This document shows positions 30,516 to 58,705 of a DNA stretch of 61,426 bases, in pieces. Source of the DNA: Ornithinibacillus caprae (GTDB taxonomy: Bacteria > Bacillota > Bacilli > Bacillales > Amphibacillaceae); assembly GCF_009728145.1 (NCBI RefSeq), contig NZ_WOCA01000021.1:1-61426 (forward strand), given 5' to 3'. Under the pieces are notes generated by a model. It had not been told where the DNA came from. It worked only from the letters and a program-made list of their open reading frames with translations, and made no database searches. Positions within the stretch are counted from its first letter, which is position 1. The number at the start of each line of letters is the position of its first letter. Made by a program: the position numbers and the translations under genes.

Positions 30516-31172
30516 ATGTATTCAAGTTATCCATATTACCCATGTGTACCATATGCTTATTATCCAGATTATAGAGTTGCGTATGTTCCATATCCATATG
30601 GAACAACTAGTATGATTCCGACTACTTGGACACGTCAACAGCCAGTTAGCGGCCGTGCTACATGGACAGAAGGTGGACCAACAACTCAATGTGGGATCCC
30701 TTGGTCTACTAACGAATATATGACAGTAGCTGTTGGGCAGAATTCTCCATATCAGTGTGGACAGTCCATTAAAGTGAGAAATCCAGCAATTCCAGGTAGA
30801 GAAGTTATTGTAACTGTTGTTGATAAGGTTTCTAGCGGTGACGCTAGTCAGATTACTTTACACCGTAGAGCGTTTGAGGCATTAGGTGCTAATCCAGATA
30901 TTGGAGTATTAAATGTAGAGATCATTGCTGATCCTGAGCTAGAGGAGGAGCGTTGGGGAAAATACTTATTAGAAGTTGTTCAAACAGCGTATCCTAATGC
31001 AAATGTAACAGAATACAATACGGTAGAAAAATCCCAAGTCTCAGCGACAGAAACAAAAGAAACGTATGACTTTATTTTACAGTCTCCAGAGGGCCAAATG
31101 ACCGTTAGAGGGAATGTGGTATATAATCCTCAGACAAACAGAGTAATCTCCTTTGATCTTTCGGAGGTTTAA
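30516..31172 (+). CDS. Tyr/Pro-rich double-psi beta-barrel protein with DUF3889-like tail
   Basis: 218 residues. The first 30 are rich in Tyr and Pro (YPYYPCVPYAYYPDY), a composition of cross-linked coat proteins. Residues about 45-140 form a double-psi beta-barrel of the RlpA/expansin type: GRATWTEGG, TTQCGIPW, YQCGQSIKV, VVDKVSSGDASQITLHR. The remaining 75 residues resemble DUF3889. There is no signal peptide, consistent with mother-cell synthesis and coat assembly. GATAGGAGG precedes the ATG. Whether the barrel binds peptidoglycan is unknown. Confidence 0.75.
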   Translation: MYSSYPYYPCVPYAYYPDYRVAYVPYPYGTTSMIPTTWTRQQPVSGRATWTEGGPTTQCGIPWSTNEYMTVAVGQNSPYQCGQSIKVRNPAIPGREVIVTVVDKVSSGDASQITLHRRAFEALGANPDIGVLNVEIIADPELEEERWGKYLLEVVQTAYPNANVTEYNTVEKSQVSATETKETYDFILQSPEGQMTVRGNVVYNPQTNRVISFDLSEV

Positions 31173-31326: not shown

Positions 31327-33282
31327 ATGAATATTACTATTGGTGTTTTAGCACATGTAGATGCTGGAAAGACAACTTTTTCTGAGCAGCTGCTTTATCA
31401 TACAAAAACCATTCGAAATAGAGGTCGAGTAGACCATAAAGATGCTTTTTTGGATAGTCATGAGATTGAAAAAGAGCGTGGTATTACAGTATTTGCTGAC
31501 CAAGCAACGTTTTCCTATAATGATTCAACGTATTATTTAATTGATACTCCTGGTCATGTGGATTTTTCACCTGAAATGGAGCGTGCGATCCAAGTAATGG
31601 ATTATGCAATTGTAATTATTAGTGCAGTGGAAGGTGTCGAAGGACATACAGAAACGGTATGGCAATTGCTTCAAAAACATAAAGTACCGACATTTTTCTT
31701 TATTAATAAAACAGATCGTGAAGGTGCAGATGTTGACAGCGTATTAGCTGAAATTCGAATAAATCTTACAGAAGATGCAGTTGATATAACCAAGTCCTAT
31801 GATAACGGAAAAATGGATGAAGAATTAGTGGAGTTCATTGCTGAGCGAGATCAACAACTATTTGAAGCCTACATGGAGTCGGGCTATGAACAAAGCCTAT
31901 GGCATAAGACATTTAAAACAATGATAAGAAAAAATATAGTCTACCCTTGTGTACATGGTTCAGCCTTAAAGGATGTAGGTGTTCATGAGTTTTTAGAAAA
32001 GTTAGATCTACTAACAGAAACTAGGTACTCGGATGAAGGTGATTTTTCTGGACAAGTCTATAAAATTCGCTATGACGAAAATGGGAATCGAGTATCGTTT
32101 ATGAAAGCGTTAGGTGGTACCCTTTCAGTTCGTGACGAACTTTCCTATGGGAAGGGTGAGGAGCGAAAAACTGATAAAGTTACTCAAATACGAGTGTATA
32201 ATGGAACGAAATATACGACGATCAATCAAGTATCTTCAGGAGAACTCTTTGCAGTAGTAGGATTATCAGATGCTGTAATTGGAGATGGAGTTGGTGTGAA
32301 TGTGGAAAAAAGCATATTTGAACTGGTACCAACATTGAGGTCAAAAGTTGTTTTTGACCCGTCTATACCGGCAAAAGATATGCTGCAATGCTTTTGCAAA
32401 CTAGATGCTGAGGACCCATCTTTACAGGTGATTTGGGATGAGCATTTTCAAGAGATACACATCCATGTTATGGGGGTTATCCAGCTTGAAGTGTTAGAGC
32501 AACTCATAAAAGAAAGATTCCATTATGACGTTTCCTTCCAAGTACCGGAAATTTTGTACAAGGAAACAATCGAAACCTCAGTTGTTGGGTATGGGCATTT
32601 TGAACCTTTAGGGCATTATGCTGAAGTTCACCTTAAATTAGAACCTGCCCCTAGAGGTACTGGAGTAACATTTAATAATGATTGTCATGCAAATGATCTG
32701 TCAGTAGGGAGTCAGAATTTAGTTCGGAAACATTTAGTTGAAAGGGATCATCATGGATTACTGACGGGTTCACCCATAACGGATGTTGAAATTACCTTAC
32801 TTACTGGACGTGCCCATCATCAACATACTTCTGGTGGTGATTTTCGTGAAGCGACATTACGGGCATTAAGACAAGGGCTAGAACAAGCACAAAATATACT
32901 CCTTGAACCTTACTATAACTTTAAAATAAAAGTTGGAATCGATGAAATAGGTAGGGTTTTATCAGATATTCAACAAGCATCTGGGACATTTAATGCTCCT
33001 AAAACGGTTGATGATAAGACAGTGGTTACAGGTAGAGTTCCAGTAGCCACCTTTATGAATTATCAAAAAGAGTTTGCTTCATTCACACATGGAAAAGGAA
33101 TATTAAATCTTAGGTTTGCAGGATATGACCGTTGTCATAATGAAGCAGATGTTATTCATAAAATGGACTACCGAAAAGATGCGGACCCTGAGTATTCCTC
33201 AAACTCCATTTTTTGCGCGAAAGGAAAAGGATATACGGTTCCATGGGATCAGGCGAAAAAGCAGATGCATTGTTTGAGCTGA
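31327..33282 (+). CDS. TetM/EF-G-like ribosomal GTPase
   Basis: 651 residues, the size of tetracycline ribosomal protection proteins. GTPase motifs AHVDAGKTTFSE, RGITV, DTPGHVDF and NKTDRE; domains II-V follow in EF-G order, with HIHVMGVIQLEVL and GGDFREATLRALRQGL in the C-terminal part. It is clearly in the TetM/OtrA side of the EF-G family but diverges from named Tet classes. It lies among chromosomal genes with no transposon around it, so it may be an intrinsic translation factor rather than acquired resistance. GAGGGTGA precedes the ATG. Confidence 0.83.
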   Translation: MNITIGVLAHVDAGKTTFSEQLLYHTKTIRNRGRVDHKDAFLDSHEIEKERGITVFADQATFSYNDSTYYLIDTPGHVDFSPEMERAIQVMDYAIVIISAVEGVEGHTETVWQLLQKHKVPTFFFINKTDREGADVDSVLAEIRINLTEDAVDITKSYDNGKMDEELVEFIAERDQQLFEAYMESGYEQSLWHKTFKTMIRKNIVYPCVHGSALKDVGVHEFLEKLDLLTETRYSDEGDFSGQVYKIRYDENGNRVSFMKALGGTLSVRDELSYGKGEERKTDKVTQIRVYNGTKYTTINQVSSGELFAVVGLSDAVIGDGVGVNVEKSIFELVPTLRSKVVFDPSIPAKDMLQCFCKLDAEDPSLQVIWDEHFQEIHIHVMGVIQLEVLEQLIKERFHYDVSFQVPEILYKETIETSVVGYGHFEPLGHYAEVHLKLEPAPRGTGVTFNNDCHANDLSVGSQNLVRKHLVERDHHGLLTGSPITDVEITLLTGRAHHQHTSGGDFREATLRALRQGLEQAQNILLEPYYNFKIKVGIDEIGRVLSDIQQASGTFNAPKTVDDKTVVTGRVPVATFMNYQKEFASFTHGKGILNLRFAGYDRCHNEADVIHKMDYRKDADPEYSSNSIFCAKGKGYTVPWDQAKKQMHCLS

Positions 33283-33439: not shown

Positions 33440-33476
33440 GTAAAGCCTAACTACTATATCGGTAGTTAGGCTTTAC
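33440..33476. terminator. hairpin between GTPase and YjcZ cluster
   Basis: GTAAAGCCTAACTAC (33440-33454) pairs perfectly with GTAGTTAGGCTTTAC (33462-33476). It lies eight bases after the stop of the minus-strand 46-residue YjcZ gene, and may serve both directions. Confidence 0.75.
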
Positions 33477-33483
33477 GTTTACC

Positions 33484-33624
33484 TTACAACCAAGCAGCAC
33501 CAACAATGATTAGTAGGATGAATAATACAACGATTAGTGCAAAACCACCGCCGTATCCATAGCCAGCTCCTCCTACTGGTGCTCCATAGCCGTAACCACA
33601 ATGATGACCATATCCAAATGACAT
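33484..33624 (-). CDS. YjcZ-family sporulation protein, 46 residues (module 1)
   Basis: 46 residues with AAGGAGG before the ATG at 33624. The N-terminal half is Gly/Tyr-rich and begins [14 protein letters not shown]; the C-terminal half is the near-invariant membrane helix [18 protein letters not shown] ending AAWL. The YjcZ family (Pfam 09680) is restricted to spore formers and made during sporulation. It follows two 36-residue relatives on the same strand. Confidence 0.88.
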
Positions 33625-33667
33625 AACACAATTCCTCCTTGTTTTAGTAATTTTTTAAATGTGAAAA

Positions 33668-33778
33668 TTAATAACCAACGTAAGCTGTTCCAACAATAAT
33701 TAGTAAAATGAACAACACTACAATTAACGCGAAACCTCCGCCATAGCCATATCCTGCTCCAGCAACAGCTTCACCCAT
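33668..33778 (-). CDS. YjcZ-family sporulation protein, 36 residues (module 1)
   Basis: 36 residues, [14 protein letters not shown] then the common membrane helix and the end TAYVGY. GGAGGTGTTATTA precedes the ATG at 33778. It is nearly identical to the protein at 33909-34019 (Y10/F10 and Y33/F33 differ), so it arose by recent duplication including the leader. A sigma-K-type promoter lies at 33808-33836. Confidence 0.9.
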
Positions 33779-33807
33779 TAATAACACCTCCATGTGCTAT
33801 TTGCTAA

Positions 33808-33836
33808 TACTATATGAGAGTTGCCCTAGTTTTGTA
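33808..33836 (-). promoter_or_regulatory. sigma-K-type promoter of a YjcZ gene
   Basis: On the minus strand: AC at 33835-33834, a 17-base spacer and CATATAGTA at 33816-33808, an exact fit to CATANNNTA. The duplicate gene at 33909 has the same -10 (34058-34050) but AT instead of AC at the -35. Just upstream a palindrome GGGACAGTGTCCC lies at 33838-33850. Confidence 0.65.
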
Positions 33837-33908
33837 TGGGACAGTGTCCCAATTTGCCTAATTTGGGCTACTCTTTCCTAGTCATTCAATCAGATTGTTT
33901 TTAAAAGA

Positions 33909-34019
33909 TTAGTAGCCAACGAAAGCTGTTCCAACAATAATTAGTAGAATAAATAGCACTACAATTAATGCGAAACCTCCGCCATAGCCAAATCCTGCTC
34001 CAGCAACAGCTTCACCCAT
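33909..34019 (-). CDS. YjcZ-family sporulation protein, 36 residues (module 1, duplicate)
   Basis: 36 residues from the ATG at 34019 (GGAGGTGTTATGTA site). A longer frame to 34157 runs through the promoter region and is rejected. Sequence [14 protein letters not shown], common helix, end TAFVGY. It is divergent from the Sm-like gene at 34219 and is the first of the three tandem YjcZ genes. Confidence 0.88.
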
Positions 34020-34218
34020 TACATAACACCTCCATGTGTCATTTGTTAATACTATATGTAATACGCCCGATCTTGATATGGAAAATGTCACGAATTCTAA
34101 AAATGGGCTCTTTAGTATATGAATCTCTTCCGCTATTCCCCTAATGCATCTATCCATTACGACATTTTATATTGCAACATACAATGTCATATAGCTCATG
34201 TATAATGGAGGTGAGAGT

Positions 34219-34473
34219 ATGTCAGCAGGGCATTATTTTGAACTGTGTAATCGGTATAAGGGGAGAGCTGTGGAAATAAGAACGAGAGATGGTAGAGTTC
34301 ATCGTGGAATCATCCAGCATGTAGATCATAGAAAGGTATATTTACAACCAATGGGTGGTGCTGGTGGCCTTGGAGGCTATGGATATGGCTTTTTCGGTTT
34401 TAGAGGATTTGGCCTTGGGATTGCACTAGGCTCAATTTTTACACTTGCATTACTTCCTTGGTTCTTTATTTAA
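34219..34473 (+). CDS. Sm-like, glycine-rich, C-terminally anchored protein (module 1)
   Basis: 84 residues from the ATG at 34219 (GGAGGTGAG site). Residues about 12-45 (GRAVEIRTRDGRVHRGIIQH and VDHRKVYLQPM) look like an Sm/LSm or SH3-type small beta-barrel. A Gly/Phe/Tyr-rich linker follows, and then a hydrophobic end, LGSIFTLALLPWFFI. It is divergent from the YjcZ genes and has a paralogue at 35140. The -10 (CATGTATAA, about 34197-34205) weakly resembles sigma-K. Probably a coat- or forespore-membrane-associated protein; function unknown. Confidence 0.75.
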   Translation: MSAGHYFELCNRYKGRAVEIRTRDGRVHRGIIQHVDHRKVYLQPMGGAGGLGGYGYGFFGFRGFGLGIALGSIFTLALLPWFFI

Positions 34474-34516
34474 GAACCAGATATTCTATAACTACCAACT
34501 TCCTCATCAAAGAAGC

Positions 34517-34557
34517 ATCCCATATTACGAATAAGCACGTAATATGGGATTATTTTT
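34517..34557 (+). terminator. terminator after the first Sm-like gene
   Basis: ATCCCATATTACG (34517-34529) pairs with CGTAATATGGGAT (34538-34550), followed by TATTTTTT. Confidence 0.9.
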
Positions 34558-34585
34558 TATCTAACTTGTCCAAAAAAGTGAGTAA

Positions 34586-34615
34586 AAACACAGTCACTCA
34601 CAAGTGACTGTGTTT
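34586..34615 (-). terminator. terminator after the second YjcZ pair
   Basis: AAACACAGTCACT / AGTGACTGTGTTT with a four-base loop; read on the minus strand it ends in a T run (TTTTTAC). It lies 18 bases beyond the stop of the gene at 34633. Confidence 0.88.
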
Positions 34616-34632
34616 AAATGGAAGTTTTGAAA

Positions 34633-34782
34633 TTATAACCATGCTGCTCCAACAATGATAAGAAGGATGAACAATACAACAATTAATGCAAATCCTCCGC
34701 CATAGCCAGCACCATAGCCAGCGCCGTATCCAGCTCCGGCTCCAGCTGCGCCATAGCCATATCCACCATATCCAAATGACAT
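34633..34782 (-). CDS. YjcZ-family sporulation protein, 49 residues (module 2)
   Basis: 49 residues from the ATG at 34782 (AGGAGGG site). It begins MSFGYGGYGYG, continues with Gly-Ala-Tyr repeats (GAGAGYGAGYGAGYG), and ends with the invariant membrane helix and AAWL. It is the counterpart of the 46-residue protein at 33484, with a longer Gly/Ala/Tyr region. Confidence 0.88.
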   Translation of the reverse strand: MSFGYGGYGYGAAGAGAGYGAGYGAGYGGGFALIVVLFILLIIVGAAWL

Positions 34783-34824
34783 AAGAAAAACCCTCCTAAT
34801 TAAATATTTTAGTTAATCGGTAAA

Positions 34825-34935
34825 TTAATACCCTACATAAGCTGTTCCAATAATGATTAATAGTATAAACAGCACTACAATTAAGGCGAACCCTCCGCCA
34901 TATCCGTATCCAGCTCCAGCAACTGCACCACCCAT
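34825..34935 (-). CDS. YjcZ-family sporulation protein, 36 residues (module 2)
   Basis: 36 residues from the ATG at 34935 (GGAGGTGTTGAAGTA site): [14 protein letters not shown], common helix, end TAYVGY. Counterpart of the 36-residue proteins of module 1 but more diverged in DNA, so the two modules separated earlier than the duplication inside module 1. Confidence 0.88.
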
Positions 34936-35081
34936 TACTTCAACACCTCCATAACCATTTGTTAATAATATACGCAGATAAATAATGTGTGATATGGATA
35001 GAATCCTAATTTGACCTAAATTGGGCTTAGGTAATAATAAACGGATGGATATTCCGCTGTTAACTCAGTCTATCTATCCTT

Positions 35082-35109
35082 ACCATGCTTCAGATTTACA
35101 CATACGATA
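35082..35109 (+). promoter_or_regulatory. sigma-K-type promoter of the second Sm-like gene
   Basis: ACC at 35082-35084, 16-base spacer, CATACGATA at 35101-35109 (exact CATANNNTA). It places transcription start about 24 bases before the ATG at 35140. Confidence 0.65.
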
Positions 35110-35139
35110 TGATAAGGCTCATCATATGGGGGTGAAAAA

Positions 35140-35406
35140 ATGTCTGTTGGATATTATCATGGCCTTTGCAGGCAGTGTACGGGAAGAGCTGTTGAAATTA
35201 GAACCCATGATGGAGGTGTCCATCGTGGAATTGTTCAAGGTGTGGATCGACGAAAGGTTTACTTGCGTCCACTTGACGGAAGACGCCATTTAGGAGGATA
35301 TGGATACGGATTTGGCGGTTTTGGTGGTTTTGGAGGCTTTGGAGGTTTTGGCCTTGGTCTAGGCTCCATTGCAGCCTTAACTTTGTTGCCGTTTTTATTC
35401 ATTTAA
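35140..35406 (+). CDS. Sm-like, glycine-rich, C-terminally anchored protein (module 2)
   Basis: 88 residues (GGGGGTGAAAAA before the ATG). Same plan as the protein at 34219: beta-barrel core TGRAVEIRTHDGGVHRGIVQ and VDRRKVYLRPL, then a run of GGF repeats (GFGGFGGFGGFGGFG), then the hydrophobic end LGSIAALTLLPFLFI. The core is well conserved between the paralogues and the Gly region is not. Divergent from module 2 YjcZ genes. Confidence 0.78.
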   Translation: MSVGYYHGLCRQCTGRAVEIRTHDGGVHRGIVQGVDRRKVYLRPLDGRRHLGGYGYGFGGFGGFGGFGGFGLGLGSIAALTLLPFLFI

Positions 35407-36597: not shown

Positions 36598-36765
36598 AGC
36601 CACACCCCTCTACATTAACTTCATCTAATAACTTATGATACTGTTTTGCCACCAGTTACAAGAATTTCATACACAATTTTATTTATATGGGACAGCGACC
36701 CTTTTCAATAATATATTCAATGAATAATATATAGTAGATTTTTTAAAACTTAGGAGGTGTGTTGT

Positions 36766-36990: not shown

Positions 36991-37051
36991 GTGGAACAAG
37001 TCACTATTAAAATCATAAGATGATGTAACCAAAATAGAAGGCGGGGCAGGA

Positions 37052-57526: not shown

Positions 57527-58705
57527 ATGCCAACACTATCAATCAAAATGCCATTGTTTGAACCAACAAATATTAAACAAGAAATGTATGAAACAATGCA
57601 ACATCGTTTTTCCGAATCTAGTAACTTGGCGATTAACATTAAAAAAGAAACTCCGAAATTAAAAGCTTCTGAAATCGATGCTAAAATAAGCCATACTGGA
57701 TTGCCTACCACATTAATTCAAGAAGCAAGAAAACTAGCTGTTTCAAGGTATCAAGATTGGAATAAAAATAAGAAAACCAAAGGTTTTCCGAAGTTTCGGA
57801 AGAGAATCGCTATTCCATTCAATAATCAAAACTGGAGATTGCGTTTTGACAATGGGTACTTAAAGTTAGGAATCCCAACTCTAGAAGAAGGTAACCTTAC
57901 GGTTGATAAATATGTTCCGTTGAAGGTGAATGATTATAATCTTTTTTGGGTGAACTATCTACTGAATGGATATATGGATAGGGCTTCAAAATACTATCTA
58001 CCCTCCTACGAGAATATTTCTTAACCTAAAAAAGGAAACGGACAACTGTTTTTCAAGAATGGAAAATGGTATTTTTCGTTCGCTATTACATTTGAATTAA
58101 AGAACGAAGTTTCTTCAAAAGAAAAAGAAGTTGGCGTGGACCGTGGGCTTAAATACATTGCGGTTGCCGGAGATAAAGAAACCGGTAAATATATACACTT
58201 CTCCGGAAAACATATTGGACATATACGTAGAAAATACTATCGTTTGAGAAGAATTTTTATGAAAAATAAAAATATGAAGGCTTTAAAACGTCTTGAAAAC
58301 AAAGAACAGCGCATCATTCAATACTGGAATCATGTGATTTCAAAAGAAATTGTACGCTTCGCCCAAAAACAAGGAGCCTCTATTATTAAAATCGAAGATT
58401 TGAAGAGTATCCGCTCTATGAAAAAGATTTGGAAACGTAGCGACCGAAATATTAATTCTTGGGCTTTTTTTGACTTGGAAGAAAAGCTTACTTACAAAGC
58501 ACAACTAGCCGAGCTAGAAGTGGTTAAAGTAAATCCGTTCAAAACTAGCCAAGAATGTTCAAACTGCGGTAACGTAGTTAAAAAGAACCGTCGAGGTTCG
58601 CTGTATACATGCTCTTGTGGGTATAAGAAAGACGCTGACGTTAATGCCAGTTTTGTCATTTCCACAAGACCATCTAACGAAGAAAAAGCAATAACTGCGA
58701 CTTAG
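57527..58705 (+). pseudogene. tnpB: tnpB (RNA-guided nuclease) with one in-frame stop
   Basis: A 392-codon TnpB reading frame broken only by TAA at 58022-58024; the same frame continues on both sides (ending ...SYENIS, resuming PKKGNGQLFFKNGKWYF). RuvC residues are kept: Asp in GVDRGLKYIAV, Glu in IIKIEDLKS, Asp in YKKDADVNAS. The zinc ribbon is CSNCG...CSCG. GAGGGGGTGA precedes the ATG. TnpB is an RNA-guided DNA endonuclease. The single stop (perhaps TCA to TAA) suggests recent inactivation. Confidence 0.85.

Follow-up and report, generated by a model that had tools for sequence, protein, structure and literature searches.

Half-Sm proteins and YjcZ micro-proteins at a candidate late sporulation locus of Ornithinibacillus caprae

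The DNA considered here, a 61,426-nucleotide (nt) stretch of Ornithinibacillus caprae (contig NZ_WOCA01000021.1, called the window below), carries between positions 33484 and 35406 seven short open reading frames (ORFs) arranged in two modules. Five of them, on the minus strand, encode micro-proteins of the YjcZ family, and two divergent plus-strand genes encode glycine-rich proteins, termed half-Sm here, whose N-terminal module looks in structure models like the first half of an Sm fold. The half-Sm family is restricted in our sample to genomes with SpoIVA, its genes are preceded by promoter-like boxes at a fixed place and show genomic linkage to YjcZ, and a role in sporulation is well supported by these features of the sequence. 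With moderate confidence, the region can be read as a late mother-cell sporulation locus in which the half-Sm proteins, together with YjcZ, would form a structural layer beside the outer membrane of the forespore or the inner coat. To our knowledge the molecular role of the YjcZ micro-proteins is poorly understood, and the half-Sm proteins are candidate partners for them.

All seven ORFs, which a preliminary description made from the sequence alone had arranged in two modules, are present. In module 1 a lead YjcZ gene (33668..33778, minus strand, 36 amino acids) is followed by a second one (33484..33624, minus strand, 46 amino acids), a further 36-residue copy lies at 33909..34019 on the same strand, and half-Sm copy 1 (84 amino acids) occupies 34219..34473 on the plus strand. 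Module 2 has a lead YjcZ gene of 36 amino acids (34825..34935, minus strand), a second gene of 49 (34633..34782, minus strand) and half-Sm copy 2 (35140..35406, plus strand, 88 amino acids); both half-Sm copies end in a hydrophobic C-terminus. The assignment of the minus-strand products to YjcZ is borne out for all five, including the extra copy in module 1, with 46.3-48.3 bits against PF09680 (curated cut-off 21) and 44.8-53.1 bits against TIGR01732 (curated cut-off 21.35). Half-Sm copies 1 and 2 are identical at 55 of 84 aligned residues and the YjcZ 46-mer and 49-mer at 40 of 43. The extra 36-residue protein of module 1 is, as had been noticed, nearly identical to its neighbor (34/36 amino acids, 102/111 nt).

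The half-Sm family extends well beyond this species. Relatives of the 88-residue protein were found in 40 of 61 genomes close to the window's (its own included) and 35 of 51 genera, so these small genes can be considered more than chance ORFs. When a half-Sm profile was run against 299 genomes of the class Bacilli, 122 of them matched, spread over 53 of 119 genera. SpoIVA is present in 210 of the 299, and all 122 matches fall within those 210, with none in the 89 genomes that lack it (Fisher p 3e-26, for genomes that are not independent); counts for positive genomes rest on complete rows. The 25 genomes with strong matches (E<1e-15) are all SpoIVA-positive, and YjcZ is present in 24 of them (absent from G139) versus 66 of the 185 other SpoIVA-positive genomes. 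The sporulation link proposed at the outset is thus upheld in this sample, with 122 of 122 profile-positive genomes carrying SpoIVA and sigma-K-like boxes preceding the orthologues, as described below.

The consensus of sigma-K promoters is AC at -35 and CATANNNTA at -10. Exact boxes with AC 17 nt upstream, which had been reported ahead of the genes starting at 33778 and 35140, were found at both: AC-N17-CATATAGTA for the YjcZ gene (33808..33835, minus strand) and AC-N17-CATACGATA for half-Sm copy 2 (35082..35109, plus strand). Half-Sm copy 1 is preceded by AC-N17-CATACAATG (34159..34186, plus strand), which differs from the exact box by a single letter. Ahead of the extra YjcZ gene starting at 34019, an exact CATATAGTA (34050..34058, minus strand) is as far from the start as the box of 33778 is from its own, with no AC at -35 spacing, and no exact box was found upstream of the lead gene at 34935. 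Two enzyme genes to the right of the modules, for a DUF2268 protein and a methyltransferase, have AC-N17-CATAAGTTA (36629..36656, minus strand) and AC-N16-CATAAGATG (36996..37022, plus strand), respectively. In all, the pattern AC-N16/17-CATANNNTR ends 29-32 nt before the start codons of YjcZ 33778, both half-Sm genes, the DUF2268 gene and the methyltransferase gene.

The bare pattern was rejected as evidence, its count in the window being near chance: the AC-N17 form occurs 9 times versus a shuffled mean of 4.64, a count reached in 7 of 100 shuffles and so not clearly enriched, and the AC-N16 form 6 times versus 4.62. What goes beyond chance in this promoter-like signal is that it stands at a constant distance from start codons and recurs ahead of orthologues. 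CATANNNTR lies within 100 nt upstream of 46 of 49 half-Sm genes (shuffles: mean 6.58, largest 13), and 24 of the 49 have an AC at N15-18 as well (mean 1.07, largest 4). When AC-N16/17-CATANNNTR is confined to 22-46 nt before the start, it is found among the relatives at 21 of 49 half-Sm genes, 17 of 34 DUF2268 genes and 17 of 30 methyltransferase genes, with shuffled means of 0.17, 0.08 and 0.05. Minus-strand YjcZ genes near half-Sm have a -10 box in place in 12 of 25 cases and the full pattern in 6 of 25, the second genes of pairs mostly having none. The half-Sm genes, then, carry sigma-K-like boxes at the level of sequence, and PMC517825 lists B. subtilis yjcZ among the genes of the sigma-K regulon. 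As regards timing, an earlier mother-cell contribution to expression by sigma-E may be possible, because the -10 boxes of sigma-E and sigma-K are alike. A separate motif, TTGTCC, occurs upstream of half-Sm genes in the window (34100-34186, plus strand) and in relatives, 11 of 49 versus a shuffled mean of 1.14; it resembles a SpoIIID site in reverse and is noted as a lead only.

The association with YjcZ was evaluated around the half-Sm gene of the 40 positive genomes, to about 5 kb on either side where contigs permitted. YjcZ genes on these loci were scored with our own 20-residue scan rather than with the Pfam model, at a threshold of 62 for a named collection of 26 loci (0 matches in 30 shuffled loci) or 58 for the 40 genomes and for the class-level, control and G143, G177 and C35 loci discussed below (0 in 40 shuffled loci). 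Eleven of the 40 genomes have YjcZ within 1.5 kb (G000, which is the window's own, G002, G004, G005, G006, G009, G020, G022, G028, G036 and G039). In nine of the 11 it is divergent and directly upstream; a methyltransferase gene intervenes in G039, and YjcZ is downstream in G006. Leaving out the window's genome, linkage is seen in 10 of 39 versus 0.29 expected from each genome's YjcZ count (p 2e-13, with genomes taken as independent), and control loci in relatives gave 0 of 30 for Hfq and 0 of 19 for DUF2642. Within the named collection, YjcZ lies no more than 0.7 kb away in 15 of 26 half-Sm loci, six of the 26 (L042, L044, L045, L052, L063 and L065) being genomes already counted. Hosts that exhibit the linkage include Oceanobacillus, Ornithinibacillus, Lentibacillus, Virgibacillus, Bacillus sp. 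V3B, Perspicuibacillus and Heyndrickxia, the last with YjcZ downstream of half-Sm on the same strand.

Paralogues add further arrangements. On contig C35 of the window's own genome (L096 1352-1707) a third half-Sm gene encodes 69 residues (match E 1.7e-4) and follows a same-strand YjcZ gene at a distance of 35-38 nt, the range reflecting two possible ATGs. In G143 a 65-residue half-Sm protein is encoded behind two YjcZ genes; in G177 (L202 148-1338, minus strand) a YjcZ pair, a 66-residue half-Sm gene with an Arg-rich end and a second YjcZ pair succeed one another on one strand; in G059 a YjcZ pair diverges from a second half-Sm gene; and in G020 a C35-type copy with one internal stop adjoins a YjcZ gene. 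Of 14 C35-type loci, 5 have a YjcZ gene no more than 1.5 kb away, and two of these 5, G009 and G039, were already counted above. On another contig of the window's genome, C16 (L097 1120-1647, minus strand), a 175-residue protein begins with a weakly matching half-Sm module (E 0.008) and continues into M/P/Q/G-rich repeats and a Gly-aromatic stretch; at E 0.01 neither Pfam nor NCBIfam gave a match.

How much this linkage means for protein function can be argued in two ways. The half-Sm, YjcZ, protease, methyltransferase and YppG genes could encode separate, co-regulated late mother-cell products that make no direct contact, the genes being merely shuffled together. Such an explanation would fit the proximity of YjcZ in only 11 of 40 genomes, the variation of the YjcZ partner in number, strand and side, and the single promoter-box type before the half-Sm, protease, methyltransferase and lead YjcZ genes. 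It sits less easily with a linkage so far above its expectation, recurring in at least four arrangements that include same-strand neighbors of distant half-Sm paralogues, or with the complete lack of YjcZ at the 19 DUF2642 loci, whose products share ancestry with the half-Sm module. We regard it as unlikely, if still a serious alternative.

The second alternative begins with the neighbors that are commoner than YjcZ. To the right of module 2 the window has a predicted Zn-dependent protease of the DUF2268 family (PF10026; 35812..36597, minus strand; 187 bits, cut-off 23.6), a YppG-like protein of 77 amino acids (PF14179; 36757..36990, plus strand; 38.7 bits, cut-off 27) and a class I S-adenosylmethionine-dependent methyltransferase (PF08241; 37052..37765, plus strand), and the protease and methyltransferase are frequent half-Sm neighbors elsewhere. 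By tblastn (E<=1e-4), the methyltransferase is near half-Sm in 20 of 40 genomes, DUF2268 in 18, one or both in 26, YppG-like proteins in 7 and GNAT proteins in 5, counts uncorrected for the background density of these families. An earlier survey of 49 loci, many with flanks of only 1.5 kb, gave 31 for DUF2268 and 17 for the methyltransferase. From such numbers it can be proposed that the metalloprotease and the methyltransferase, and not YjcZ, are the working partners, with half-Sm serving a modification or maturation step in the mother cell as its membrane substrate or adaptor. The sigma-K-like boxes of the enzyme genes themselves would agree with this, as would the methyltransferase gene directly upstream of half-Sm on the same strand in G039, G040, G045 and G052. 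Against it, 14 of the 40 genomes have neither enzyme nearby, and a second half-Sm type stands behind YjcZ in a 3.1 kb locus that has neither (ORFs judged by eye), so that this explanation too is possible rather than likely.

The YppG-like gene deserves a separate word. It starts 1.6 kb from the start of half-Sm copy 2, which places the half-Sm genes in the company of YppG-type base-layer coat proteins, though the half-Sm proteins belong to another sequence family. PMC3533761 lists YppG among the proteins of the coat base layer that interact with SpoIVA.

The half-Sm proteins have a simple domain plan: an N-terminal helix and three strands, an aromatic-Gly linker and a hydrophobic C-terminus. 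In a 28-member alignment M1, C10, G15, V18, G25, H28, G30, V35, V40 and G53 are invariant; with 63 members only G25 and G30 are, 14 further columns being conserved at 90% or more. The larger set of 72 sequences (71 distinct, L022 and L067 being the same gene) has a Cys within the first 14 residues in 71, the most hydrophobic 18-residue window beginning in the last 26 residues in 71, a charge-free stretch of 20 residues at the end in 68 and an FFW terminus in 39. Start codons were picked by our own Shine-Dalgarno rule, and L039, with no usable start codon, was excluded from every protein set. The 28-row alignment (A1) omits L034, L035 and L039, A2 has 8 rows, and the 63-row alignment (A3) additionally omits the close or long members L041, L048, L053, L056, L057, L082 and L084.

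As far as the Pfam and NCBIfam scans show, the family has no model of its own, consistent with the novelty claimed for its architecture. Both window proteins fall below every cut-off in these scans and match neither YjcZ model. Sub-threshold Pfam matches among the 28 members were to KIF2A-like (19), SM-ATX (14), LSM (9) and DUF2642 (5); in a member-by-member scan of the other 26, only L018 passes a cut-off, and for NCBIfam, where only the best E-values of the members were reported, the lowest was 0.0013. The L018 match is to the ATP-synt_ab_N barrel (PF02874), at 22.7 bits versus a low cut-off of 20.9, in 1 of 28 members; copy 1, at 20.6 bits, falls just short, and we take the match for a chance one to a short barrel segment. 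A sequence search against solved structures returned six matches at E<=10, the best at E 0.2 (four Sm/LSm chains, an FXR2 fragment and a cysteine lyase), and the literature listings consulted showed no paper on the family, for which no searchable name exists. Mostly under 100 residues and lacking a curated model, these proteins offer spore biology a testable target with recurrent neighbors.

Two AlphaFold models, differing in query and alignment depth, agree on a helix at residues 3-12 and strands at 17-21, 27-35 and 40-43/44, after which residues from 48 onward have a predicted local distance difference test (pLDDT) score under 50, followed by short helices. Mean pLDDT is 68.8 and 66.9 and the predicted template modelling score 0.42 in both, so that the models are usable for the N-terminal part only. 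Foldseek gave no match with E below 0.29 for either model, and the titles among the 50 matches listed were Sm, LSm, Hfq, snRNP or spliceosome in 40 or 41 cases for the first model and 45 for the second. Profile comparison by hhalign aligned the half-Sm core with DUF2642 (PF10842) over 38 columns at probability 73 (E 3e-5 in this one comparison; five column-shuffled control profiles reached at most 0.65), and with Hfq at an insignificant 1.4. By their own models, these relationships stay below threshold: for PF01423 copy 1 scores 14.6 bits and the best of the other 26 members 18.9 (cut-off 23.4), with no PF17209 match listed, and for PF10842 the best member reaches 20.9 bits against 22.7, with no listed match for the two window proteins and 21.7 bits for the third half-Sm-type protein of the genome.

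From the profile comparison, Foldseek titles and modelled strands taken together, the half-Sm module probably shares ancestry with the first half of DUF2642 and resembles the corresponding half of an Sm fold, with the Gly-aromatic linker and tail in place of strands 4-5. The first 40 or so residues of DUF2642 (helix and strands 1-3) align with the half-Sm core, and 5 of 28 members match at E<=1, but in the collected DUF2642 proteins another conserved stretch follows and the hydrophobic tail is missing, whereas half-Sm proteins carry the linker and C-terminal hydrophobic segment instead. The Sm, LSm and Hfq proteins are likewise Foldseek neighbors of the helix and first three strands only; half-Sm has no second Sm motif and no significant sequence match to them. 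The Sm-like beta-barrel of the preliminary description therefore needs dividing: the Sm resemblance stands, but a complete five-strand barrel is not supported, only a helix and three strands being seen ahead of the low-confidence segment in these modest models. Half of an Sm fold, this suggests, was recruited as a spore building block.

An RNA-related function follows less readily. A membrane-tethered, RNA-binding Sm protein of the mother cell would account for the prevalence of Sm and Hfq titles in the Foldseek results, yet the models lack the second Sm motif, the E-values and Hfq profile probability given above are poor, and the genome carries its own Hfq; the same lack of the Sm2 half and of any significant match led us to reject membership among the Hfq-like RNA chaperones, and we consider the tethered Sm protein very improbable. 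Holin-like peptides aiding mother-cell lysis, suggested by tiny products with a hydrophobic segment and late mother-cell-type boxes, are scarcely credible given the conserved Sm-like module and linker, the near-universal N-terminal Cys and the lack of any holin family match in the Pfam and NCBIfam scans.

For the structural layer that we favor, we infer a compartment, a membrane insertion, oligomers and a partnership with YjcZ along the following lines. Under sigma-K, as the boxes suggest, the mother cell would make two paralogous half-Sm proteins alongside the YjcZ micro-proteins, each half-Sm protein with its helix-strand-strand-strand module, a disordered Gly/aromatic linker and a mostly charge-free hydrophobic C-terminal segment. 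The latter would insert in, or pack on, the outer membrane of the forespore or the inner coat; the Sm1 module, left without strands 4-5, could pair edge to edge with further copies; and the Gly-aromatic stretches common to YjcZ and half-Sm might pack between half-Sm copies, the outcome being a membrane-proximal structural layer of the spore. The two partners do have a Gly/Tyr-rich head, a hydrophobic C-terminus and genomic company in common, though YjcZ has no Sm-like module. SscA (YhzE), a B. subtilis coat-assembly protein, presumably belongs to the YjcZ family. A bolder version, which we think rather improbable, has half-Sm and YjcZ co-polymerizing at the outer forespore membrane, neighbors completing one another's Sm1 modules edge to edge and tails and YjcZ filling the layer; this would be an unrecognized layer in much of Bacilli, tuned by the co-regulated metalloprotease and methyltransferase.

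Several observations weigh against the structural reading. The methyltransferase and protease outnumber YjcZ as neighbors, which a purely structural role does not explain, and 29 of the 40 positive genomes have no YjcZ in the examined stretch. At class-level loci (L066-L094, 1.5 kb flanks) YjcZ is near in 3 of 29 (the window's own L066, L071 and L091), so that the linkage thins out beyond the relatives of the window. Of the 122 class-level profile matches, many are weak and limited to the N-terminal half. Related genomes, besides, are not independent of one another as observations, and their shared ancestry inflates the p-values. The full AC pattern is missing from 25 of the 49 half-Sm genes; moreover, 206 other ORFs of the same loci have CATANNNTR in 20% and AC-N15-18-CATANNNTR in 15% of cases, a background that is due in part to the inclusion of co-regulated neighbors. 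Finally, the AlphaFold models are modest and silent on oligomers.

For the YjcZ association itself, the consequence is a narrower claim. Half-Sm genes often, but not always, travel with YjcZ, and "YjcZ module" is too narrow a description; an obligate module was rejected on the 29 genomes just mentioned. Separation of Sm-like genes from YjcZ genes, which the preliminary description had named as contrary to its proposal, was thus found in part, while the linkage it had proposed is real (11 of 40 versus 0.3 expected) without being exclusive. A table in PMC8313275 includes YjcZ genes among those absent from one strain.

The YjcZ genes of the window probably form three transcription units: 34019 alone, 33778 followed by 33624, and 34935 followed by 34782. 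Both pairs have an intergenic gap of 42-43 nt (43 nt in the first), and the second gene lacks its own promoter box. Terminator-like hairpins follow several units: the first YjcZ unit (33440..33476, minus strand), half-Sm copy 1 (34517..34550, plus strand, with a T run) and the second YjcZ pair (34578..34601, minus strand). Hairpin and T-run patterns number 14 in 2.5 kb versus a shuffled mean of 1.7, some of the 14 being both strands of one hairpin or intragenic.

Some history of the duplication can be read from Oceanobacillus limi (G002, L065), where YjcZ pairs flank a single half-Sm gene on both sides. Because of this arrangement, the second YjcZ pair is probably older than the split between O. 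limi and the window's species. The O. limi half-Sm protein is nearer to copy 1 (62/84) than to copy 2 (51/87), and the second half-Sm copy may have been either lost in O. limi or gained in the window's species.

Three other features of the window were noted in passing. An EF-G/TetM-like GTPase of 651 residues (31327-33282, plus strand) has as its best NCBIfam match the tetracycline ribosomal-protection equivalog, at 443.8 bits versus a cut-off of 775; with a score so far below the cut-off, a chromosomal paralogue is likelier than a proven resistance gene. Farther right, two adjoining ORFs of 165 and 189 residues (57527-58705, plus strand) appear by eye to be pieces of one IS605-type TnpB. Upstream of the GTPase, a 218-residue protein with a Tyr/Pro-rich start (30516-31172, plus strand) matches DUF3889 and, weakly, the expansin-like DPBB domain.

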